Shown here piece after piece: positions 1,930 through 59,605 of a DNA stretch of 64,000 nucleotides. This stretch comes from Amphiura filiformis (taxonomy: Eukaryota; Echinodermata; Ophiuroidea; Amphilepidida; Amphiuridae), in contig NC_092640.1 of the NCBI RefSeq assembly GCF_039555335.1, positions 34,031,887 through 34,095,886 of the forward strand, given 5' to 3'. The position numbers and the translations under genes are program-made. A model generated the notes under the pieces. That model was not told the origin of the DNA. It ran no database searches and was given only the letters and a program-made list of their open reading frames with translations. Every line of letters begins with the position of its first letter. The first letter of the stretch is position 1.

Positions 1930-4900
1930 CCTTAAGAGGAACTATCTGTTATTACTGAGAATATAATTGCCACGGTCAAAAATAGATTTTCTTTATACTT
2001 TCATATTTGATGGACCTTGACCTCAAACTAACACACATGGGATAAATTTCGGAAAAATATCCCCGTTGCCATGGTAACAGGCAAATTTCAATTTTAGGCC
2101 TATTTTCACAATTTTTGCATTTTCAGCAGTCAAATTGTCAAGTTTTGAAGCCAGTGTTACTAATATACACAATATAAATATGATTTTTTCTTTATAAGGT
2201 ATGAATAGGTCAAACCTTAGATGCCGCAATGAAAGTATAAAAATAATCACCAGATGTCAGGGTGGGTTATACCATTTATTTGAAATAGGGGTGTTTTTCA
2301 ATTTTTCAAAGTATGAAAATATACCAACTTTGTATAGCTCATAAACCATATGGTAGTGTTCCGATTTCAACATCGACCACAGCATGTTGAGATGATACAT
2401 TGGTCTTATGAAAAAGTTACATTTGAGCTTGGGGAAAACACATCTGTATATACAGTGTTGCCAGACATTTTCCTATTTTTCGAAATTCAACACAAATCTC
2501 ACCTTAAGTTTATGATGTGAAAATGAAACATCATCCTTTCAAAGGAACATTTATTAGAAAGAGAGTTTTTATTCATATCAAATTTGATCAGTTATAATGG
2601 TCAGTGTTGTTCTAAACCACATGGGTGTTGCCATAATTGGGGTTTAATTGTGATTTGTGGATATTTTCAACTTTTTACAAGTCATAAAAATACCAAAATG
2701 CATTTCTATAATAAAGAAAGAAACATCGACCTCGTCATGTTGAGATGATATATTGGCCTTATGAAAAAGTTATTTTGATCTGGGGCGGGGTAAGACATCA
2801 GTTTATACAGTGTTGCCAGATAAACCACATGGGTGTTGCCATAATTGGGGTTTAATTGTGAGGTGTGGATATTTTCATCTTTTTACAAGTCATAAAAATA
2901 CCAAATTGCATTTCTATAATAAAGAAAGAAACATCGACCTCGTCATGTTGAGATGATACATTGGCCTTATGAAAAAGTTATTTTGATCTGGGGGGTGGGT
3001 AAAACATCAGTTTATACAGTGTTGCCAGATATTTTCCTTTTTTTTTTCAAAATTCAACACAAGTCTCGCCCTAAGTTAAAAGATATGAAAATGAAACTTC
3101 ATCTTCATACGGAATATATCTTTTTAGAAAGAAAGTTAATTTCATATTCAATTTGATCATCTGGGATGGTCAGTGTTATTTCTAAGCCATATGGGTGTTG
3201 CCATAGCTGGCGTTTAATATGACAATTTAGATATTTCCAGCTTTTTACAAGTCTTAAAAATAGTAGGGCCTACACATCCTTAAAATTATTGTGGAATGAA
3301 CGCAATATTAAGGTTAATTACCCTAAGAACACTTAGTATGTGAATTTAAATTTTAAATTTGAGTTCGGAAAATGTTTCCTTCTATACAGTATTGCCAGTT
3401 ATTATCACATATATTCAAAATTCAACGTATGTCTCACTTTAGGATTTATATTGTTTAAATCGCTGCCATGAATAAACCACATGGATGATGCCACTATAAA
3501 TGGAGTTAATAGTGAAATGTGGATACATTTGCAATTTTAAAATGACACCTTATTAAAGTTACAGCTATAGTATTCCAATTTTTCACAAAAAGCACACAAA
3601 TTTGTCCTAATTTGGCGCTTTTATGGGCACTTTTGCCTTAATGCACCCAATTTGGTGTATTGTCTCCACTGCAAACCCACCAATCGACATATTGCTAAGG
3701 TACCCCCAAAACCGTGGCACATCCCCGTATACCTTTAACCAGGGAGAACCCCCTCCGGGGTCATGTCATAGGTATACTGTGCCCAGTAGTCCTCTTTTTC
3801 TACTTGAAACGGATTTTCCTCAGACAACTTTGATCAACATTTGGTGATTTTTTATTTTGCGAGCTCCTCTCGGGAAAGGTAACTGGACATTAATTTGTCT
3901 GGCTGTGAAAAGGTTCTGTGCGTTATTGTCTTTGACTATTCTCATATCTTTCGAGACATTTGCTGGATCTATATAGTTTTTTGCCCATTTCTTCCCCATA
4001 TCTTTTTTGCAAGTATAGTTGGGATGTGTGCTTTAATAATATGGGGTAGGCGTAATTTAAACATTATCTTACTCTTATATGCATCGTTTTGCAATGTAAC
4101 AATCTTATGTTATTTTAATTTATTTTAGACTAGCTAGTATGTGTATATTGGTAAAAACATTATGGCTTTTATGTATATTTTAAAGTATACATGTTTGATG
4201 TTTTCTGTGTTGTATTTTAAAGGGTTGGTCACCCACCTTTGCACAGTATTTTTGTCGGACATGAGAGCACATCAGACATACCAACTTGCATTTTGAATAC
4301 GAGGAATGTCCTTCTGATATAAAATAATTTTGATTTTTTTTTAAATTCGCGATACAATAAAAATTTTAGGGTAAATTATGCACATATTGATTTTTTTTGA
4401 TTTTTTGACATTACAGTTAATTTAATAAATCTAATTATGTGTACTTAAAGTGTATGTAGCTGGGATGAAAAGCCGACCACTAATCAATTAATTAATGTTA
4501 ATTGAAAAATTTGACCTTTCATAGTGAAGATATAGATTTTCCCCAAAAGTTTTGGTGAAAAAATCTATATCTACAATACGAAAGGTCAAATTTTCATATG
4601 GACGGCTTTTCATTCCAGCTACATACACTTTAAGTACATATCACTAGATTTATACAATTTACTTTTGAGATCTGTTAAATTTCAAAAATATCAATTTTTA
4701 ATCAGTTGCCATAAAATTTGTATTATATCGCAAATTTCAATATGTCTGATGTGCTCTCAGGTCCACAAAAAATATGTGAAAACGTCGCTATTTGGAACAA
4801 CAATGACCATTTATACAACTGATCAAATTTAATATGAAAGTAAATTTCATTTTAATAAACTTTCCTTGTGAAGGTGAAGTTTCATTTTCGCATCATTTAA

Positions 4901-6774
4901 CTTAAGGTGAGACTTGTGTTAAATTTCGAAAAAATAGGAAAATATCTGGCAACACTGTATAAACATATGATTTCCCCAAGCTTAAGTGTAAGTTTTTCAT
5001 AAGACCAAATATGTATCATTTCAACATGGTGAAGTTGATGTTTCACTTCCACATATTTTTTAAGGAATGCATACCATGGTATTTTGGTATTTTTAAAACT
5101 TGTAAAAAGTTCAAAATACCACATCTCGCTATTTAACCCTAATTATGGCAACACCCATGTGGTTTGGAACAACACTGACCATTTATACAACTGATCAAAT
5201 TTAATATGAAAGTAAATGTCTTTCAAATAAACTTGCATTTTCAACCTAAGGTGAAACTAGTGCTGAATTTTGAAAAAATAGGAAAATATCTGGCAACACT
5301 GTATAAACAGAAAGCTCAAATGTAAATTTTTCATAAGACCGATGTATCATCTCAACATGATGAGGTCGATGTTTCATTTTCACATCTTTATTTTAGGAAT
5401 GCATGCCATTGTATTTTGGCATTTTAAGACTGAAAAATAGCTGAAAAAGCTGAAAAAAGCTGAAAAAAGCTCAACATAAGTTGAATTCTGAATTATGTGA
5501 TAATATCTGGCAATACTGTATAGAAGGAAATATTTTCCGAACTCAAATTTAAAATTTAAATTCACATACTAAGTGTTCTTAGGTTAATTTTTAACCTTAA
5601 TATTGCGTTCATTCAACAATAATGCATGTTAAAGGTGTGTACTATTTTTTAAGACTTGTAAAAAGCTGGAAATATCTAAATATTGTCATATAAACGCCAG
5701 CTATGGCAACACCCATATGACTTAGAATAACACTGACCATCCCAGATGATCAAATTGAATATGAAATTAACTTTCTTTCTAAAAGATATGTTCCATATGA
5801 AGATGAAGTTTCATTTTCATATCTTTTAACTTACGGCGAGACTTGTGTTGAATTTTGAAAAAATAGGAAAATATCTGGCAACACTGTATAAACTGATGTT
5901 TTACCCCCCCCCGATCAAAATAACTTTTTCATAAGGCCAATGTATCATCTCAACATGACGAGGTCGATGTTTCTTTCTTTATTATAGAAATGCATTTTGG
6001 TATTTTTATAACTTTTAAAAAGTTGAAAATATCCACAAATCACAATAAAACCCCAATTATGGCAACACCCATGTGGTTTAGAACAACACTGACCATTATA
6101 ACTGATCAAATTTGATATGAATAAAAACTCTCTTTCTAATAAATGTTCCTGGAAAGGATGATGTTTCATTTTCACATCATTTAACTTAAGGTGAGATTTG
6201 TGTTGAATATCGAAAAATAGGAAAATGTCTGGCAACACTGTATATACAGATGTGTTTTCCCCAAGCTCAAATGTAACTTTTTCATAAGACCAATGTATCA
6301 TCTCAACATGCTGTGGTCGATGTTGAAATCGGAGCACTACCATATGGTTTATGAGCTATACAAAGTTGGTATATTTTCATACTTTGAAAAAATTGAAAAA
6401 CACCCTATTTCAAATAAATGGTATAACCCACCCTGACATCTGGTGATTATTTTTATACTTTCAATGCGGCATCTAAGGTTTCACCTATTCATACCTTATA
6501 AAGAAAACAGTATATATATATTGTGTATATTAGTAACACTGGCTTCAAAACGTGACAAATTGACTGCTGAAAAATGCAAAAATTGTGAAAATAGGCCTAA
6601 AATGAAAATTTGGCTGTTACCATGTCAACGGGGATATTTTTCCCAAATTTATTTCATGTGTGTTTGTTTCAAGTCAAGGTGCATCAAATATGAAAGTTTA
6701 AAGGAAATCCATTTTTTGACCGTGGCAAACATTTAAAAAAAATTCTCCAAAATAACAGATAATGCCTCTTAATA
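1930..6774. mobile_element. 4.8-kb imperfect palindrome built of repeated modules
   Basis: The left arm (1930-2400) and the right arm (6330-6774) are reverse complements, starting with AACTATCTGTTATT and the partner AATAACAGATAATG. Further matching pairs include 3350-3480 with 5480-5600, and 2700-3200 with 5700-6000. The axis is near 4550. Within each arm a module of about 300 bases recurs, marked by ACAGTGTTGCCAGA, CATGGGTGTTGCCATA and CATGTTGAGATGAT. The left arm has an extra, unpaired segment at about 3520-4200. No transposase is recognised. Open frames inside are by-products of the palindrome. Confidence 0.85.
4205..4800. mobile_element. Nested palindrome at the axis of the large repeat
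   Basis: The arms pair around 4549. One side reads GAGGAATGTCCTTCTGAT and GTACTTAAAGTGTATGTAGC, with reverse-complement partners on the other side. A diverged relative with the same layout lies at about 58640-59260, so this is probably an independent element that sits inside the larger palindrome. Confidence 0.75.
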
Positions 6775-14345: not shown

Positions 14346-14997
14346 TATACAGACTCATATCCTATTTATACCCAGTGGTCCTGATCCCAAAGTGTTCTGA
14401 TGCATTAATAATTGCACATAAATGGAGAGATTGTTGAATTCAAAAGTCACAAAAAATAGTACCCTCTTACATGAGGATGGTCAAGCAGAATTTGATATCG
14501 TGCCCCGCTTGTCTTGCCAGGATTATTAATGTAATAATAAGGCTTTTGCATTATTATCAGACACCCGGTATCGGAAAAACTTGCATTATAATCGTGCAAC
14601 CATTATTAGCAAGTACAATTGGATTTTAACCCGGGGGGGTCACTCCCATTGTGGCCTGTACACCATCCACCAACTTTTGAATTAGTGAACTCTTTCATTT
14701 AATCTGTGTCTTTGATGCTAGGAGTCTGCTGATGAAGCATGCCAAAAATCTTTTCAATTGAAGAAATACTTTTTAAAATATAAAAGCAAGTCGAAATGGG
14801 TAGTTAATTTTGTTTTACTCTTTAGTATAAGGCTGTGCGATTTGGCTACATTTGTGGAGCTAATATTTTTTGGCATCCTGACACATCAAATAATAAAACT
14901 AGAATTGGGTCTAGATATGATTTATGCTTCCCCACAAGGGTTCGTAGATCATAATGGCGTCAATACTAAAAAATAATGGTCTCATTGTAAGGAGCTG
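14346..14997. other. Unannotated stretch
   Basis: A C/G run occurs near 14630. A plus-strand frame at 14758-14976 has no recognisable domain or splice context. Confidence 0.35.
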
Positions 14998-15708: not shown

Positions 15709-16285
15709 TTTCTCAAATAAATTATTATTCTACATTGCTTAGTTCAGGGGTTATAATGTCGAATAGGTCACATGTCACAAATTTCATACACAGAGGTCAA
15801 ATTTTAAAAATAGTCAGGTTAATCGAAACTGGTCTCAAATACTCCCCTAAAAAAGGAATATCGAACATGTTCAAGTACAAACTTTGATCCATGGTTTCAT
15901 CCGATTCTGAAATAATTCATTTCTCAAATAAATTATTATTCTACATTGCTTAGTTCAGGGGTTATAATGTCGAATAGGTCAAATGTCACAAATTTTATAC
16001 ACAGAGGTCAAAATTTAAAAATAGTCCTGTTAATCGAACTGGTCTCAAATACTCCCCTAAAAAGGAATATCGAACATGTACAAGTATAAACTTTGATCCA
16101 TGGTTTCATCCGATTCTGAGAAAATTCATTTCTCAAATAAATTATTATTCTACAGTGCTTAGTTCAGGGTTATAATGTCGAATAGGTCAAATTTTACAAA
16201 TTTCATACAGAAAAATTTTAAAAATGGTCCGGTTTAATTGAAACTGGTCTCAAATACTCCACTAAATAAAAGAAATCTCGAACAT
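15709..16285 (+). repeat. Three-copy tandem repeat, 209-211-bp period
   Basis: Units start at 15709, 15920 and 16129 with TTTCTCAAATAAATTATTAT and contain GCTTAGTTCAGGGGTTATAA and TGGTCTCAAATACTCCCCTA. The third is incomplete and more diverged. Related single pieces occur near 16570-16620, 39922-39966 and 40370-40610. Confidence 0.88.
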
Positions 16286-18558: not shown

Positions 18559-18957
18559 ATTCTAGTGTGGATAGTACAAGCTAGGTACTTCACATGTTAG
18601 TAAGAATCAGCTTGGGCAAATGTTACTTCTAAATACAGTGTTGCCAGAAAAACCGGTATTTCTGCAAATTGACATTTTGTCAAATTACGCCTTTTTGTCA
18701 CAATTTTGTGCATTTTGACAATAGTTTCCTTCAAGGTGAATCTAAAAACACTTTTTCATCTTTGTTAATACTATAATAACTAAACTCAAAATTAGTGTTG
18801 CCAGAATTCTTGATAAAACACGCAAGATTGGCATTTTATTGATAATATGATTTTTTCTTGATGCTTTGGTTAGGAAATGCTTATTTCTAATTCTCATACA
18901 TCGAATGCACATAGTATAGATTGTTATATGAATGTTTAAACACTAGAGCACAAAATA
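18559..18957. repeat. Continuation of the 16.8 / 54 kb inverted repeat
   Basis: Matches the reverse complement of about 53720-54110, including AGTGTTGCCAGAATTCTTGA, TTTGTCAAATTACGCCTTTT and ATTGTTATATGAATGTTTAA. Confidence 0.85.
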
Positions 18958-19584
18958 AGTGTTGCCAGAATTCTTGATAAAACACCCAAAATCATATATA
19001 TATTTATATGTGCCACGATCCAGTCCACTCACGCTCAAGTTGACAACATCAAAATTTGGTTTACTATCATCAATAGCTTGTCCTAAAAAGCGTTTTCAAA
19101 TTTTGAAAACCCCACAGTTCTAGTATTATCTAGTGCAAAGTTATGGTCAAGGTATATGGGTATTAATTTTGTTCTTTGTTTTCTATTGGATTTTGCCACC
19201 TTATTTTGCCAAAACAGTTACTGTGACTTAAGCTAAGGCCACAATTTCTCCGTGATACGGAAAAACGGGGTTTGCTCACGGAAATTTGAAAATGCCACAA
19301 AATAGTGAAAAACTATGCAAAATGTCTACCTTTTGTGTTGATTTGCAAAATAAAACAAAGGAAAGTGATCATTTAGCAGTAATCAACCATTAAACAATCC
19401 AATCTAGGTCTTAGCTGCAAGACTCTGGCCATACTACAATAAAAGGTAAGACAAAATACACTTTAAAATAAACATGTTTGTTTTAACTTTTCAGGGCTTT
19501 ATGTGGAAAACGGAAAATCTAATTTGTAACACGGATTTTAAATTTTGTAACACGGAGAAATCATGGCTTTAACTTAAGCCTTAG

Positions 19585-20225
19585 TGGATTGGATCAATAT
19601 CAATATCAATAATATCAAACATAATAAAGAAATATTAATATGAATAATAATCAAAAATATTAACATCGATATCAATAATAATCAAATTAGTGATATCAAT
19701 ACCAATAAAAATCAAAAGTTTTAATATCCATATCAATAATAATCAAATATATTAATATCAATATAAAAAATAATCAAAGAAATTAATATCGATATCAACA
19801 ATAGTCAAAAATATTAATATCAATATCAATAATAATCAAAAATATTAATATCAATATCAATAATAATCAAAAATATTAATATCAATATCAATAATAGTCA
19901 AATATAAACAAATTAATATCGATATCAATAATAATCAAGAATATTAACATCAATATCAAGAATAATCAAAAATATTAATATCAATATCAATAATAAATCA
20001 AATATATTAATATCAATATCAATAATAATCAAACAAATTAATATCAATATCAAGAATAATCAAATATATTACGGTAATATCAATATCAATACTAATCAAC
20101 CAAATTAATATCGATATCAATAATAATCAAAAATATTAACATCAATATCAATAATAATCAAACATATTAATATCGAGATCAATAATACCGGTAATCAAAA
20201 ATATCAATATTAATATGAATAATTA
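19585..20225 (+). repeat. AT-rich minisatellite, 31-33-bp unit, forward orientation
   Basis: About twenty units of the type AATATTAATATCAATATCAA followed by TAATAATCAAA. Small variants (GATATC, AAGAATAATC) occur throughout. Confidence 0.9.
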
Positions 20226-20537
20226 TCTTAAAATATTAAAATATTTTTGATTATTATTGATATTGATATTAATATTTTTGATTGTTATTGATTGATGTTA
20301 ATATTTTGATTATTAGTGATATTGATAGTTTTGATTATTAATGATATTGATATTAAATTTTTGAATATTATTGATATTGATATTAATATTTTTGGAAAAT
20401 TATTGATATTGGTATTAATATTTTTTTTTTTGATTGATATTAATATGAATATTTTTTATTATTATCGATATTGATATTAATATTTTTATTATTATTGATA
20501 TCGATGTTAATATTTTTATTTTGGATTATTATTGATA
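20226..20537 (-). repeat. Same minisatellite, reverse orientation
   Basis: Units of TTTTTGATTATTATTGATAT and TGATATTAATATT are the reverse complement of the array to the left. The array resumes at 21042-21165 after the MITE. Together the arrays could fold into a hairpin of several hundred bases. Confidence 0.9.
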
Positions 20538-21041
20538 TTAACCCTAGAACTACAAGTACCAACCCGCTAAGATTTTTTATCCGCTGTAAAAAACGCGCAC
20601 ATTTACGCCCAAACGACCTAAGCTAATCGTAGATCCATCCTTTGGTGAGGCCCACTTTCAATGATTTTCATTTCGCTCATGTAAAATTATTATAAGCTAC
20701 TGACTTTTTACTTGTTAGTTAGGTTGAAATAGTCATTTCCTTTTATATTTAGGAGAAAATTCGATCAAAATCAAATTTTTGCAGAATTTTTAGCCGAAAA
20801 TCAATTTTGTCTATACTTTTGTACATAGCTGTTATTCCCAAATTTGCATGGGCGCCCTCATATTATGACGTCATTGCGACATTATGTGGGGAATGTTTGT
20901 ACTTATTGGTATCACTGGATAGAGGAGACCCATAGCTATACATTGTTATCAAATATAACGGTATGACGTTTATAATTGAAAATTAGCAACCCCCTTCCGT
21001 GTTACAAAATGTCATGGCTTTAACAGTAATTCTAGGGTTAA
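20538..21041. mobile_element. piggyBac-like MITE
   Basis: The ends are TTAACCCTAGAACTAC and TAATTCTAGGGTTAA. TTAA target sites with CCCTAGAA inverted ends are the signature of piggyBac elements. At 504 bp it has no room for a transposase, and no frame is seen. It interrupts the reverse-orientation AT-rich array. Confidence 0.88.
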
Positions 21042-21290
21042 TGTTATTATTTTTGATAATTGTTGATGTTGATGTTAATACTTTTGATTATTATTGATAT
21101 TGATATTAATTTTTTTGATTATTATTGATAATGATGTTAATATTTTTGATATTATTATCAATATTGATGATAGTAAACCAAATTTTGACGCATGAGTGGG
21201 CTGGATCGTGGAACATATAAATATATATATGATTTTGGGTGTTTTATCAAGAATTCTGGCAACACTTATTTTGTGCTCCGGTGTTTAAAC

Positions 21291-28892: not shown

Positions 28893-30650
28893 ATGGTAAT
28901 GTGGTTATATAATAGTGGGTGGCGGGGGTAAGGGTGGTGATGGAGTAGGGTTGTTGCCTTGTCAGGGTAAGTTGGTGGCATGTTAGGGTGGTGGGGTAGG
29001 GTTGTCTGGGTGGTAATAGTGGGTGGTGATGTAAGGTTAGTGGGGTAATAGTGGGTGGTGGAGTCATAGTGGGTGGTATTGTAATTATAGTTGGTGGGGT
29101 CATAGTGGATGGTGGTTATATTTCCCCCTACATGTAGTCCATACTTGACATTCTAGTCAGAACAGATCGAGAAACAAAGTCAAAGCCAACACATGACTCA
29201 ACCAAACAATGTGTGACACCTATCAACTTAAGTTGGTAAGTTGGTGGCGGGTTGTCTGGGTGGTGGTGTAAGGTTAGTGGGGTAATAGTGGGTGGCAGGT
29301 TAGGTGGTGGGGTAGGGTTGTCTAGGTGGTAATAGTGGGTGGTGGTGGTGTAAGGTTAGTGAGGTAATAGTGGGTGGCAGGTTAGGGTGGTGTGGTGGGT
29401 TGTCTGGTGATAATAGTGAGTGGTGGTGCAAGGTTAATGGGGTAATAGTGGGTGGCAGGTTAGGGTGGTGGGTAGGGTTGTTTGGGTGGTAATAGTGGGT
29501 GGTAGTGCAAGGTTACTTGGGGGTAATAGTGGGTGGCAGGTTAGGGGTGGGTTGGGTTGTCTGGGTGGTAATAGTGAGTGGTGGTGCAAGGTTAATGGGG
29601 TAATAGTGGGTGGCAGGTTAGGGTGGTGGGTAGGGTTGTTTGGGTGGTAATAGTGGGTGGTAGTGCAAGGTTACTTGGGGGTAATAGTGGGTGGCAGGTT
29701 AGGGGTGGGTTGGGTTGTCTGGGTGGTAATAGTGAGTGGTGGTGCAAGGTTAAGTGGGGTAATAGTGGGTGGCAGGTTAGGGTGGTGGGGTAGGGTTATT
29801 TGGGTGGTAATAGTGGGTGGTATAGTGCAAGGTTACTTGGGGGTAATAGTGGGTGGCAGGTTAGGGGGTGGGTTGGGTTGTCTGGGTGGTAATAGTGAGT
29901 GGTGGTGCAAGGTTAGTGGGGTAATAGTGGGTGGCAGGTTAGGGTGGTGGGGTAGGGTTATTTGGGTGGTAATAGTGGGTGGTATAGTGCAAGGTTACTT
30001 GGGGTAATCATGGGTGGCAGGTTAGGGTGGTGGGGTAGGGTTGTCTGGGTGGTAATCAGTGGCGTGCCGTGGCCGCCCCAACCCCGGGGGGCTGAAGAAG
30101 AAACAATTTTGCCGCCCCTTCCTTAACAGCCCGAAAAGGTTAACCCAAATTTTTTCACGGTCGTTTGAAAAAGTGAAGAGAAAGAAAAAAAAAAGGATTT
30201 CAGGCGCTAGCGCCCTGAAAGCAACATTTTTTCAAAAATTTTTATGCTTTTTCAATTTTGTACGCCCTTTTTTCTTTGCTAATTTGTTTTGTCGCCCCCT
30301 TCGTTTTTGCCGCCCCTGTTTTTGCCGCCCATTCTTCCGCCGCCCCTTCGTTTTGCAGCCCCCTTCTTTGACCCCGGGGGGCTGGCGCCCCCAAAGCCCC
30401 CCCCAAAATATGCGCATGGTAATGGTGGGTGGTGGTGCAAGGTTAGTGGGGTAATAGTGGGTTGCAGGTTAGGGTGGTGGGTAGGGTTGTCTGGGTGGTG
30501 GTGGTGGGGTAGGATTGTCTGGGTGGTAATAGTGGGTGGTGGTGTAAGGTTAGTGGGGTAATAGTGGGTGGCAGGTATAGGTATAGTGGGGTAGGGTTGT
30601 CAGGGTGGTAATAGTGGGTTGTGGTGTAAGGTTAGTGGGGTAATAGATCC
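28893..30650 (+). repeat. G-rich dimeric minisatellite
   Basis: The unit, about 80 bases, is rich in GGGTGGTAATAGTGGGTGG, GGGGTAATAGTGGGTGGCAG and GGTGGGGTAGGGTTG. From 29452 the word GTGGCAGG recurs at steps of 81, 77, 81, 78, 84, 78 and 83 bases, an alternation that points to a two-unit (about 160-bp) higher-order repeat. Long GGG-spaced runs on the plus strand could form G-quadruplexes. Open frames across it are low-complexity artefacts. A transposon sits inside at 30057-30417. Confidence 0.9.
30057..30417. mobile_element. CAGTGGCGTGC-type element, copy 2, inside the minisatellite
   Basis: Starts CAGTGGCGTGCCGTGG after GGTGGTAAT and ends near AAAATATGCGCAT before GGTAATGG, so a short duplication of GGTAAT is likely. 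It contains the same words as copy 1 at 23136 (GGATTTCAGGCGCTAGCGCC, CCCCTTCGTTTTTGCC). Minisatellite resumes directly after it. Confidence 0.8.
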
Positions 30651-36399: not shown

Positions 36400-38177
36400 T
36401 TTTTATGGTAGCTCCATAAGGATGTAACAAGAAATCAATCTTGAAACACCCTGTTTACTGTTATACATTAACACATATTTATTTATGTGTTTATATATAT
36501 TTATGTGTTTTCTTTCTTTATAGGCTATTTTCTTTTTAATTTAAAGTAGGCCAACGGGATTTTGAAAGAACGGCTGCCAAAACAAATACTGAGTTACATT
36601 AAACAAGTAAAGGTAGGCCCTGCGTTTATACAGTAGACCTAGTGCCTATTTAGTAGCATGGATAGTAATAGTAGGCTTTATATAGCGTATATAAAAGTGA
36701 AGGGCGGAGGGGCAGTAACAGGGGAGTTATTGCCAGAAAGAGCGGATCCAGGTTTGACAAATTTTACCTGCTCGTGCTTCGCTCACCCCAATTTTCACGG
36801 CAAATTCGACTATATTGGCAATGCTGAGATGAGCTCGAGGGATATGATCGATCAAAGTTGTAAAATTTTGCAACAGTTTTATCAAAATTGCCTGGTCAAA
36901 GTGAAAACATTCACCTTTTTGAATATTTTGTGAACATTTCAGAGCAAAAACACCTTCTTAAATCGATTTCGCGAAACCCTCGCATGCTTTTTTGGACAGG
37001 AACACGTAGGGCCTACAACTAGTCCCGAAACCGAGTTAAAATAAGCATTTCGAGCAATATTGCGTGCATGATAAATAATTGGATATACATTATGCACATT
37101 TATTTTACTTGATTTAGACGATGAACACCTTTTTGCACCATTCTGCGAATTTGTTTTGAAAAATGAAACTTGTTTGTGCGTCCCAGAAATCATCCCATAG
37201 GCCTATTTTACAAAATTTCCGACGAGCATTAATAACGGCAGATAATCATACACGACGTACAGGGACCGTGGGAACTGGATTCGCTCCTGGTTATTGCCCG
37301 TAATGTATAGTCTACTGCAGGCAGTGCCGCCGACAAGGAGGGTTAAGGGGGTGGGGTGGGTGTTACCCCCGGGCCCGGGGTCCTAGGGGGCCCCGTAAAA
37401 AATAAAGAAAGCATACCTTAAGGGTGGTCTTAACCCTGGAATTATGGAAACTTTCGGGCTTCATAACTGCTAAATTATTAGTCTAAAGAATATAAAAGTA
37501 TATATTTTTAGAATGGAAATGACTTGATGAATTCATCTGTGAGGTCAAATTTGGGCCAAAATGCTCATTTTTAGAGAAAATCCCAAAAAACGGGTTTTTT
37601 GGCCCAATTTTTTAGGTGCAGCGTAACAAAAAAATTGTTTGGCCAAAAACATTTTTTTATTAATTTTTAAAAACAAGAACTGCGTATGTCGAAAATAGAT
37701 GTTTTGTTTTGCAATGATGAGTTCAAAAACTTTCTGATAAATAGAAATTCAGCAAAAAAGGTTGTTTTGAAATATAGGGACAGAACACTTCTGTCAATTT
37801 TGTCATACGTCAAATAACGACTCCTCGGTAATATTCATAAACGTGAAATATATTAAATTAATATTATATGTTACCCAACTTACCAAAATTTAAATGACCA
37901 TAAACACACACCCACACATAAGTTATTGTGGTTTTCATTTTTTTCTCTTAATTTTTTTATTATTATTTTTTTCTCTCTGTTTTTTAACATGTTTACCAGG
38001 AACATCAATATCTTAAATTTTACAGGAATGTCTCTAAGTATCGATTTTGCGGATGATAAATGTATCAATATAAGGTCACTGTGGGGCAAAACTTTAAAAT
38101 AGCCCCATCATGTTGTTATGTATCTCAAATTGTTCCACTCATCACAGGGAATAAAAAAGTCAATGGTCATATTCTTC
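36400..38177. other. Interior of the candidate large element, unannotated
   Basis: A fragment of a CAGTG-CCGCC type element with GGGCCCGGGG words lies near 37320-37400. At 37430-37510, words such as CTGCTAAATTATTAGTCTAA recur at 55685-55735. A plus-strand frame at 36658-36933 has no recognised domain. Confidence 0.4.
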
Positions 38178-38182
38178 TTAGT

Positions 38183-39921
38183 GACAGGGTTTGAGGTTTG
38201 AGGACGGTTTTACTGCCAAAATGGGGGAAAAATGAAGTTCATGTTATCATAACATTATACATGTTTTCTGGACTAGAATTTTGTGCTGAGTCCATTTCTG
38301 AAGTTTTTAATACACAGGCTATCACCATTTTAAAGATATGTAACAAATTCTAAGCGCATGTTGTTTTTACGAAGAACGTTAACCAATCTTGGGAGTCGAC
38401 TTGGAACATAACTGTATTTTAAAAAAGTTACAGAGCATTATTACTTCAGTTAAAGTTGTTTTGAATCTATAAATATGTTAAACAAACTATAAAGACTGCT
38501 TAAACACTGTTCTCATGTATGAAAATGAAATGATGTTGGTACTGAGGCCCCTGTATTCCTATATATTTAGTAAACATAAAGCGGTCAGGTTTGGTGTCAA
38601 GACAATAAATCTATTGATGTCTAAACTCATAAAGAAATGATGTTCTTAAAGTGTTAATGTATAACTGATTACCTTTACACAATCTTAAAATGTTTATACT
38701 GAAGCATAGCACTTCATTCACCCCTGACATCAGAAATGGCTTGTTGATAGCGCAACTGAATATTGTGTGATCTAGCGGCACGGGCTGCATCAACTTTATT
38801 TTCTGATAAGTGGTTGATGTGATGAGCTGGTACAGAACTAAAGTTCTCTTCACCATACCACTTGACTATTACTTGATTCTGTTTCAGTTTTCTCAGGATA
38901 GAACTTCTCAGATGTTCAGGTAATGACTTTAGCTGGATACCAGAAGCAACCATGCTTTGCCCATACTACATCTCCCGGTGTGAAAGATTCTTCATCATCG
39001 GTGGTTGTATTATCATCAGATCATCCCTTTATAATTACATATTTGAGGGCACAACATGAAAGGCATTGACTGCTCTTCCTGGAATAAATTTTATGGGTGT
39101 GACCTTTGGGTTTAAGGGGTTGATACATCAGAAAAATGGCGTGAGCCTCAAAATGGGGCAAAATCTGAGTCGTAAAAAAAATTATTTTGAAAAAAAGTAT
39201 ACATGGCATCATTCCACAAATCTAATCGATTGTGGGGATTGGTAGAGTGCACAATCGATCAACTTTTCAGAGCTGTACCTCCATAAGTTTTTCCGAAATA
39301 ATTTTTTTTACAATTTGCCATATTTTTTTCACGCTTAGGGGTAGGGATAACATTTTTGCAATTGTCTTCAATTTTTCTTTTTTGAAGGAAGTTAAAATTA
39401 TTATCAGTGTGTGGCAAATTGAAATATCATTAAAATGAGGGGTTAATGAGGTCTCTAGCCCCTTTAGATCAAATTTTATGGCGAAACTAAGATACAAATC
39501 TCTCGAAAATGACCTTTTTTGGGCTTCGTTTTTTCACTTTCAAGTTCAACTTTATCCGGTATGGTATACAAAGTAAGCAATGAAATTAATTAAAACAGTT
39601 TTATTTGAACAAATAAACCATCAGGTAATACAAAATAACAGAGAAAGACAACATTTATCTATATAGTAGAAAATATTAGGGATTAAAATTAATGGTGAAT
39701 TTTTTTCACCTAAAACTGGTCATTTTCAGTAAAAAATGGCCATAAATCCATGTTTAACCCCAAAACGACTAAAGATACAGTATTCTAAGTTAGAAAAATT
39801 GAAAATTCAGACATTTTTACCTTAGAAATACTATATATGCTCATTTTAGAAGTATTCTTCACACCTAAATATTTTTTCACACATTTGGCAGTGAAACCGT
39901 CCTCAAACCTCGAACCCTGTC
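38183..39921. mobile_element. 1.74-kb TIR element carrying a PWWP-like gene fragment
   Basis: Ends GACAGGGTTTGAGGTTTGAG and CTCAAACCTCGAACCCTGTC are inverted for about 38 bases, including GGACGGTTT(T)ACTGCCAAA. TTAGT lies directly on both sides (38178-38182, 39922-39926). Removing the element restores a continuous copy of a repeat found at 40530-40600 (reverse) and 15709 onwards, in which TTAGTTCAGG is uninterrupted. So this is a real insertion with a 5-bp duplication. I cannot assign a superfamily. The inside holds the PWWP-like fragment on the minus strand and no recognised transposase. Confidence 0.85.
38714..39020 (-). pseudogene. PWWP-like domain fragment with a frameshift
   Basis: From 39020 downward one frame reads an acidic lead (DDNTTTDDEES) and then FTPGDVVWAKHGCFWYPAKV, the characteristic start of a PWWP domain (GD.VWAK..G.PWWPA.V). 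It hits TGA at 38916-38918. The next frame takes over at once with PEHLRSSILRKLKQ, VIVKWYGEENFSSVPAHHI and an arginine/alanine-rich helix (AARAARSHN), the usual PWWP continuation (strand W.G...F..V, then helix). A one-base change near 38919-38930 thus breaks the domain. PWWP domains bind methylated histone tails and DNA in chromatin proteins. It lies wholly within the TIR element 38183-39921, which suggests capture of a host gene piece, although the domain could be an old part of the element's own proteins. Confidence 0.65.
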
Positions 39922-39966
39922 TTAGTTCAGGAGTTATAAGGTCAGATAGGTCAAATTACTCCCTTA

Positions 39967-40240
39967 GGGACCGTTCACAAACAATTGTAAGGGGGGGCTG
40001 ATGCAAAAAGGGGGGCCCTGAAAATGTTTGACCCTCCTAAGGGGGGGGCTGAAAAAAATGACCACAAATTTTCCTGGAAAATTGAGTTATATGCTTTTCT
40101 ATGGTTTACCCATAATTTTCATGTCAAAAAAGGGGGGCCCTGAAATTTTCGAGGTCTGTAAAGGGGGGGCCCCGAAAAATTTTCGCGATAATTTTTTTTT
40201 GCATCAGGCCCCCCCCTTACAAGTGTTTGTGAACGGTCCC
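39967..40240. mobile_element. TTA-flanked MITE (PIF/Harbinger-like)
   Basis: GGGACCGTTCACAAACA and TGTTTGTGAACGGTCCC are perfect inverted ends. TTA flanks both sides (39964-39966, 40241-40243). The 3-bp TWA duplication and GGG start fit PIF/Harbinger. The interior has repeated AGGGGGGGC words. It sits in the same older repeat as the neighbouring element 38183-39921. Confidence 0.85.
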
Positions 40241-41276
40241 TTATTATAGGAAATCTCAAACATATACTTAATTCACAATTTTGGTACAAATTTTCATAGT
40301 CATGTCCCGTTCAGAGTTTATGCAGTCAAAGTCAAATAGAATGTGCATGCATAACCTTTGACTTATCATGTGATTTCATCTATTCTGAGGTTATACATTT
40401 CTCAAACGAATTGTTTTCCTATACTATTTTGTTTGCCCAGAGGAGTTATTTTGAGACAAGTTGTGATTAAATCGGTGCACTTTGAAAATTTGGCGACTGT
40501 GCATGTGATATTTGACCTTTGACCTATTTTACTCTATAACTCCTGAACTAACCATTAGTTCGGAATGACAGTTGACTTTTTTATTCCAAGCAATGAGAGG
40601 AACAAACAATTTGAGGGATGGATTGCAACATGAAATAACAAATTTGAAATTTTGGCCCCATGAACCTTCGACCCCTCATGGGAAGCACACGGGGCATAAA
40701 AAATGGAGAACCAATTCTAGTCTTATCAGTTGAGGCATAAGGATGCAAAAAAACATTGGTTCCACTAATCATAATGTAGCAAAACTAGATCCCAAATATT
40801 ACCCAATAGCGCCCTGTACTACCATGGCGAAAACAGACAAAATGTTCACTGAGTAACTACACTGCATTTTGGGCAGCTAAAGATTAATAAACAAATGTCA
40901 ACAAGAACAGAGGTTACGGTTATCTGCTTTGGCTTAATAACTAACAAGATCAATAATAACAACTTCAAACTTTAATCTGCCACCATAGAAAGTTGCATTA
41001 AAATATACAAATTCAAATTGTATTAATAATTAAATAACAAACATTTTTCACCCACTTGATATGAAGAGGCATGATTATGCTGATTTACTGGAATGGTCCA
41101 GAAAAATGTTCACTGCAACTTTGCAATCTATATCAAATTTAGTGGTTCTTCATCATTTTATGTATCATTTTTACATTGATTTCCTTTAAAAACATTCACA
41201 GAAGAGATCTTGCACAAACATCTTTAGTCATCCAACTGGTGGTGTTAAATGTTACTACTCATCATGCTTGAAGATA
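40241..41276. other. Repeat fragments and AT-rich sequence
   Basis: 40370-40610 carries pieces of the repeat seen at 15709-16285 and 16570 (CTATAACTCCTGAACTAA, CAATGAGAGGAAC). The rest would be the 3' exon of the proposed minus-strand transcript, if real. Confidence 0.4.
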
Positions 41277-58006: not shown

Positions 58007-59605
58007 CAGGGTGTCTCAATAAAAATAGGCCCTATGAAAAGTGGTGCATAACTTAAAATATCAACAGTAAAATAAAAAAAATTCTTAAAGATTCAAAAAC
58101 CATGAAGTGTCTGCTTAACAGTAGTGCGAAAATGATCCAAATCCGTTCATGCTTCACTGAGATAATTAAGTTTGTACAAATAGACAAATTTTTAACCATT
58201 CCAATGGGGTAATACACGTTAACAATAATTGTAGTTTATTATAACATAAATAAAAAAAGGAAACGCCAAGTGTTGCTGATTAGTAGTTTAAAATCAATCA
58301 ATCAATCTCCCAAAGAATGTTTTTCACATGTTTCTCTTTGGGTTAAGGGCTCGTATAGAAACGTTTTGCACAGTATTTACTACATAACTCGAGAACCACA
58401 TGACCTACAGAAGTATATCTTTAATATCAATGCAATATTTGCCAAAGCTCACTACCTTTCGCAATATGATGTGAACTACCAAATCGCAATGATGCCTGAT
58501 GCCTCTTTTCTGTTATTGATGTTGTTTATCAATTTTTGTTTGTTTCACCATCAATACTATCATCACCTGGACATTTCATTTCATTTCATTTTGAGAGAAC
58601 CAATTTCTCTTAAATCAAATATTTCAGCCACTTCAATATAAAGTTCAGCCCTACTGTTGCTTGACAAATGTATATATGAACAGCGACATTTTTACGTATT
58701 TCGAAAATGAGGAACGTCCTTCTGATATCAAATATTTTTTAATACGCGACATAATGCCGTTTTATGGCAAATGATTAAAAATTGATATTTTGAAATTTAA
58801 CAGTCCTCTAACTAAATTGTATAAACTTATTGATATGTACGTACTTAAAGTGTAACTGGGACGAAAAGCTGTCTATCATAAAATCGACAATTTTGACTTT
58901 TCATATTGAAGATTAAGATTTTTCCCCGAAACACAAAACACATATAAAAAAATGGGTCTTTTTGGGAAAAATGGATATCTTCAATATGAAAGGTTAAAAT
59001 TTTCAATTGATGATCGGTTTTTTATCCCAGCTACATACCCTAAGTACATATTATTAGATTGATGATGTTTACCTCGAGGATGGTTAAACATCAAAAATAC
59101 AAAAAATATCAAATTTTAATAATTTGCCATTAAATTTGTGTTATATCGCGAATTTCAAAAAAGTAACAAATAGTTGACATCAGAAGGACATTCCTCGTAT
59201 TAGAGTTGTCTGGTGTGCTCTCAGATCCCCCCCCCCCCAAAAAAACTGTGCAAACGTTGCTATCCGAGCCCTTAACCCAAACATGTGAAAAACATTCTTT
59301 GGGAGATTGATTGATTGATTGATTTTAAACTCCAACTCAGCAACACCTGGTGTTTTCTTTTATTTCTTTTATATTAAACTACAATTATTGTTAACGTGTA
59401 TTACCCCATTGGAATGGTCAAAAAATGTGTCTATTTGTACAAACTTAATTATCTCAGTCACGCATGAACGGATTTGGATCATTTTTGCACCACTGTTAAG
59501 CAGACACTTCATGGTTTGTGAATCTTTAAGAATTTTTTATTTTACTGTCGATATTTTAAGTTATGCACCACTTTCCTTAGGGCCTATTTTTATTGAGACA
59601 CCCTG
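58007..59605. mobile_element. 1.6-kb TA-flanked palindromic element with nested inserts
   Basis: CAGGGTGTCTCAATAAAAAT at the left pairs with ATTTTTATTGAGACACCCTG at the right, and the arms pair for about 340 bases, up to GGGTTAAGGGCTCG / CGAGCCCTTAACCC. TA lies on both sides. The centre (58345-59263) holds a piece related to 13746-14095 and a palindrome related to 4205-4800. No transposase is recognised. Confidence 0.85.

Follow-up and report, generated by a model that had tools for sequence, protein, structure and literature searches.

Transposons of the Pack-TIR type, known from animals (PMC8277862) and plants (PMC8903248), are recognised by terminal inverted repeats (TIRs) with a target-site duplication, the absence of an own transposase and a gene-like interior, their defining feature being a match to a host locus. 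In the animal survey, Tan et al. describe 370 Pack-TIRs in 100 animal genomes, only four of them multicopy; hAT is the commonest superfamily (208 of 370), 160 of 281 unique elements (56.9%) lie no more than 15 kb from the parent, and most single-copy elements are ascribed to gap filling (PMC8277862). The element analysed here was found in a 64-kb stretch of DNA, hereafter referred to as the window. It resembles the published elements in that TIRs and a target-site duplication surround a transposase-free interior with a gene-like domain, seen in one copy, and the interior lies within the 100–5000 bp range of the animal survey (PMC8277862). Unlike in Pack-TIRs, a match to a host locus was not identified, the search covering the window and viral and prokaryotic collections.

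The element is 1739 bp long and occupies positions 38183–39921 of the window, in agreement with the original prediction of an element of about 1.74 kb bounded by inverted ends. An inverted-repeat search placed the two arms, 51 nt long and 86% complementary, at 38183–38233 (plus strand, starting GACAGGGTT) and 39871–39921 (minus strand, finishing AACCCTGTC). The inverted ends claimed earlier thus exist, but their length had been put at about 38 bases; inspection by eye revealed mismatches at 2 positions between the outer 38 nt of the two arms. The arm pair was recovered by blastn within the window with an E-value of 4.5e-12. The outer 25 nt, with up to three mismatches allowed, matched the window at the two element ends only (0/100 shuffles). 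A window-wide scan for TIRs with target-site duplications gave 522 rows and was too permissive to be used as a control. The element termini start with GACAGGG and are flanked on each side by TTAGT, at 38178–38182 on the left and 39922–39926 on the right, so that the predicted 5-bp duplication is present at both flanks. The symmetry of the element ends indicates a target duplication of 5 bp. A 6-bp duplication, CTTAGT, with unequal ends is a less likely alternative; a C precedes the left TTAGT and also closes the right end.

When the two flanks were joined without the element, blastn aligned them with positions 40518–40633 of the minus strand, with 84 of 116 columns identical and one TTAGT at the join. 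Since this homologue contains a single TTAGT and is aligned on both sides, the insertion is real, as had been claimed together with the presence of an uninterrupted target elsewhere in the window. Homologues of the right side only were found near 15738, 15949 and 16158, their left sides being unaligned by blastn. These three read CTTAGTTCAGG without interruption, and TTAGT is therefore part of the target repeat. Positions 40518–40668 and approximately 38072–38182 plus 39927–39955 are the two arms of one inverted repeat, and the element splits the latter arm. It follows that the insertion is younger than the enclosing repeat.

The older inverted-repeat pair spans 38072–40668, and relatives of its right arm were seen at 14850–14985 and between 15736 and 16664. 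A small foldback element at 39966–40241 has 32-nt arms that are 97% complementary, ends in GGGACCGTTC...GAACGGTCCC, contains G-rich runs and, by eye, is flanked by TTA on both sides. Its appearance is that of a MITE lying within the older repeat that also holds the PWWP element.

The minus strand of the element codes for a PWWP domain (Pfam PF00855) across two consecutive frames. The coordinates of the two pieces were obtained by tblastn. The first piece, SDDNTTT...GDVVWAKHGCFWYPAKVIT (39020–38919, minus strand), ends at a stop and covers profile positions 1–19, and the second, SLPEHLRSS...ISDVRGE (38926–38717, minus strand), likewise ends at a stop and covers positions 21–85; the two pieces thus stand in profile order. 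Put differently, the minus-strand reading SDDNTTTDDEESFTPGDVVWAKHGCFWYPAKVIT runs into a stop, and the neighbouring frame carries on with SLPEHLRSS...VRGE. Taken singly, the pieces score 17.4 and 19.7 bits, both below the curated PF00855 cut-off of 25.6 bits; the single-frame E-values are 0.0012 and 0.0062. Joined with an X at the join, they score 41.8 bits, above the cut-off, with a profile-search E-value of 1.6e-10. The prediction of a minus-strand PWWP start continued in the next frame is therefore borne out, and the profile check proposed for the translated region is weak for single frames and clear for the joint reading.

Between the first and the second piece, the codon phase shifts by one base gained or two lost. 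A spliced intron was considered as the source of the frame change and discarded on account of the 8-base overlap between the two readings. Given that the TIR arms differ by 14%, a single lesion over roughly 100 codons would, as a rough estimate, be compatible with modest neutral decay. The element's reading shares with members of the PF00855 family the GDVVWAK...WYPA start, the WYGEEN strand and an alignment that extends to profile position 85; unlike them, it is split by the frame change and specifies no intact protein. Among solved structures, the best match by sequence was DNMT3B (6r3e_A, E-value of 3.9e-7), followed by a 915-residue 'PWWP domain-containing protein' (9hd7_P, E-value of 2.5e-4).

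Analysis of the rest of the element revealed no Pfam match above cut-off, transposase included, in any of the 15 overlapping open reading frames of at least 40 aa (15/15 scanned), a search that a very decayed transposase could escape. The second PWWP piece (19.7 bits) is among these 15 frames. The longest stop-free run in the element is 88 aa and was equalled in 115 of 500 base shuffles. The GC content of the PWWP segment is 0.414, versus 0.318 and 0.320 on either side. The AT-rich interior at 39021–39870 (GC 0.32 over 39021–39921) contains no recognised coding domain, no Pfam match there exceeding the cut-off. Several weak matches within the element were taken as chance because all of them are below the Pfam cut-off: CRAL_TRIO at 39267–39533 (E-value of 0.0072), WHH and Colicin-DNase at 39060–39245 (0.035 and 0.078), MORF_dom at 39785–39955 (0.095), and Peptidase_C74 and Fimbrial_K88 at 38714–38965 (0.18 and 0.2).

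Further copies of the element and a parent of the PWWP segment were sought. In the 64-kb window, blastn (E-values up to 1e-3) matched the element to itself and its two ends only, with no second copy, and no other match to the PWWP pieces was present, the best other tblastn E-value being 0.25. Exact TIR patterns gave 0 matches in a viral collection (viral_contigs) and a prokaryotic one (genome_contigs), a result with little bearing on a eukaryotic host, to which the repeats and the PWWP domain point. With the joined PWWP query, 14 stretches of the viral collection and 73 of the prokaryotic collection fitted the pattern, and 0 were confirmed in either.

The TIRs, the target-site duplication, the uninterrupted site, the PWWP homology with one frame change and the lack of a recognised transposase support a capture reading. 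We consider it probable that the locus is a non-autonomous cut-and-paste transposon holding a fragment of a host PWWP gene, that is, an element of the Pack type (Pack-TIR). It is a small DNA transposon and seemingly a dead one. The features by which Pack-TIRs are recognised were found as follows: TIRs are accompanied by a target-site duplication; no own transposase was recognised by Pfam above cut-off in the 15 of 15 open reading frames of at least 40 aa; and the interior includes a PWWP domain at 41.8 bits, for which we infer a host-gene origin. That origin falls short of demonstration, since neither a parent gene nor a second copy was seen. The GC content of the PWWP segment, unlike that of the rest of the element, was counted in favour of capture, with the reservation that coding sequence of any origin would also be GC-richer here. 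The lack of a nearby PWWP parent in the window counts against capture, given the commonest pattern in the animal survey (PMC8277862).

Under capture, the PWWP segment would derive from a host gene and would have been gained by gap repair or template switching, either inside the element or during transposition. The element ends would be mobilised by a transposase supplied in trans, and the fragment, yielding no intact PWWP protein, would be decaying. If this is true, the Pack-TIRs, a class already established in animals, gain one further candidate, which carries a chromatin-reader exon.

The original prediction had offered two alternatives, gene capture and an element-encoded protein, of which capture is the likelier. 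With a single copy, capture is indistinguishable from a gene that was part of the element's lineage. The PWWP segment might be native to that lineage, with the locus descending by internal deletion and decay from an autonomous transposon whose product was a PWWP protein or a transposase bearing a PWWP domain. We regard this as rather unlikely, yet it accommodates a reading that is nearly complete (profile positions 1–85 of 93) and lies well inside the element, and epigenetic genes do ride in DNA transposons, an example being the TET/JBP dioxygenases carried by transposons of several superfamilies in fungi (PMC12730594). Against it, no transposase remnant was recognised in the element's open reading frames, and a PWWP-encoding transposon did not appear among the literature matches listed, which covered mostly non-subscription papers. 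Those matches include the reverse arrangement, with transposon Pot3 sequence in a fungal PWWP-domain gene (PMC3978060), and plant Polycomb partners, where a PWWP protein is described as a partner separate from the domesticated Harbinger transposases (PMC8948837).

A more specific form of native origin would be an autonomous TIR lineage encoding its own PWWP chromatin reader, of which the present element would be a decayed copy. Such a reader could steer insertion to marked chromatin, or shelter the element in it, by analogy with the PWWP protein LEDGF, which is reported to tether lentiviral integrase. A self-encoded reader is conceivable, positive support for it is lacking, and we find it doubtful. 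Were the PWWP domain native to the lineage, the element would represent a transposon equipped with a reader of histone marks of its own.

It is also conceivable that the element inserted here without the PWWP fragment and received it afterwards, when a gap was filled or a second insertion nested within it, in which case fragment and ends never moved together. This is a variant of the capture reading in timing, with the same origin. Nested inverted repeats do occur in the region, and the animal survey proposes acquisition after insertion as the main route for single-copy Pack-TIRs (PMC8277862); around the PWWP segment, however, no further TIR pair with a duplication of its own was identified inside the element, and we hold late addition to be improbable. 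A chance origin of both the PWWP reading and the element would agree with the scores of the single pieces below the Pfam cut-off and with a joined E-value that comes from a profile search lacking a shuffled control, but has a nearly negligible probability in view of the joint E-value of 1.6e-10, the TIR pair at 4.5e-12 and the homologous uninterrupted site.

The ends of hAT transposons tend to CAG...CTG, and 5-bp duplications are also produced by Transib. The 5-bp duplication of the element analysed here fits hAT5 among others, the superfamily assignment being unproven; hAT5, a group within hAT, is described as making target duplications of 5 bp (PMC12730594). The element is like hAT5 in its 5-bp TTAGT duplication and unlike it in that no hAT transposase was recognised and the ends start with GACAGGG. 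Because no transposase was recognised, which is expected for a non-autonomous copy, the element was not filed as hAT5.

In the window as a whole, one tRNA was detected by Rfam at the gathering threshold, and none of the 7 scanned stop-free frames, out of 22 of at least 110 aa, had a Pfam match above cut-off. In the long inverted repeats at 2386–5990 the arms measure several hundred bases by eye, and 208-bp tandem units occur at 2613–3031. Another inverted repeat, at 18950–21274, surrounds an AT-rich array of approximately 31-bp units, the unit flipping to its reverse complement near 20240. A G-rich tandem array at 29257–30062 has periods of 79 and 158, and the GC skew over 29001–30000 is 0.758. 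An inverted repeat pair at 58007–59605, which we take to be mariner-like, has CAGGGTGTCTC ends and is flanked on each side by TA; its arms, judged by eye, measure about 300 nt.
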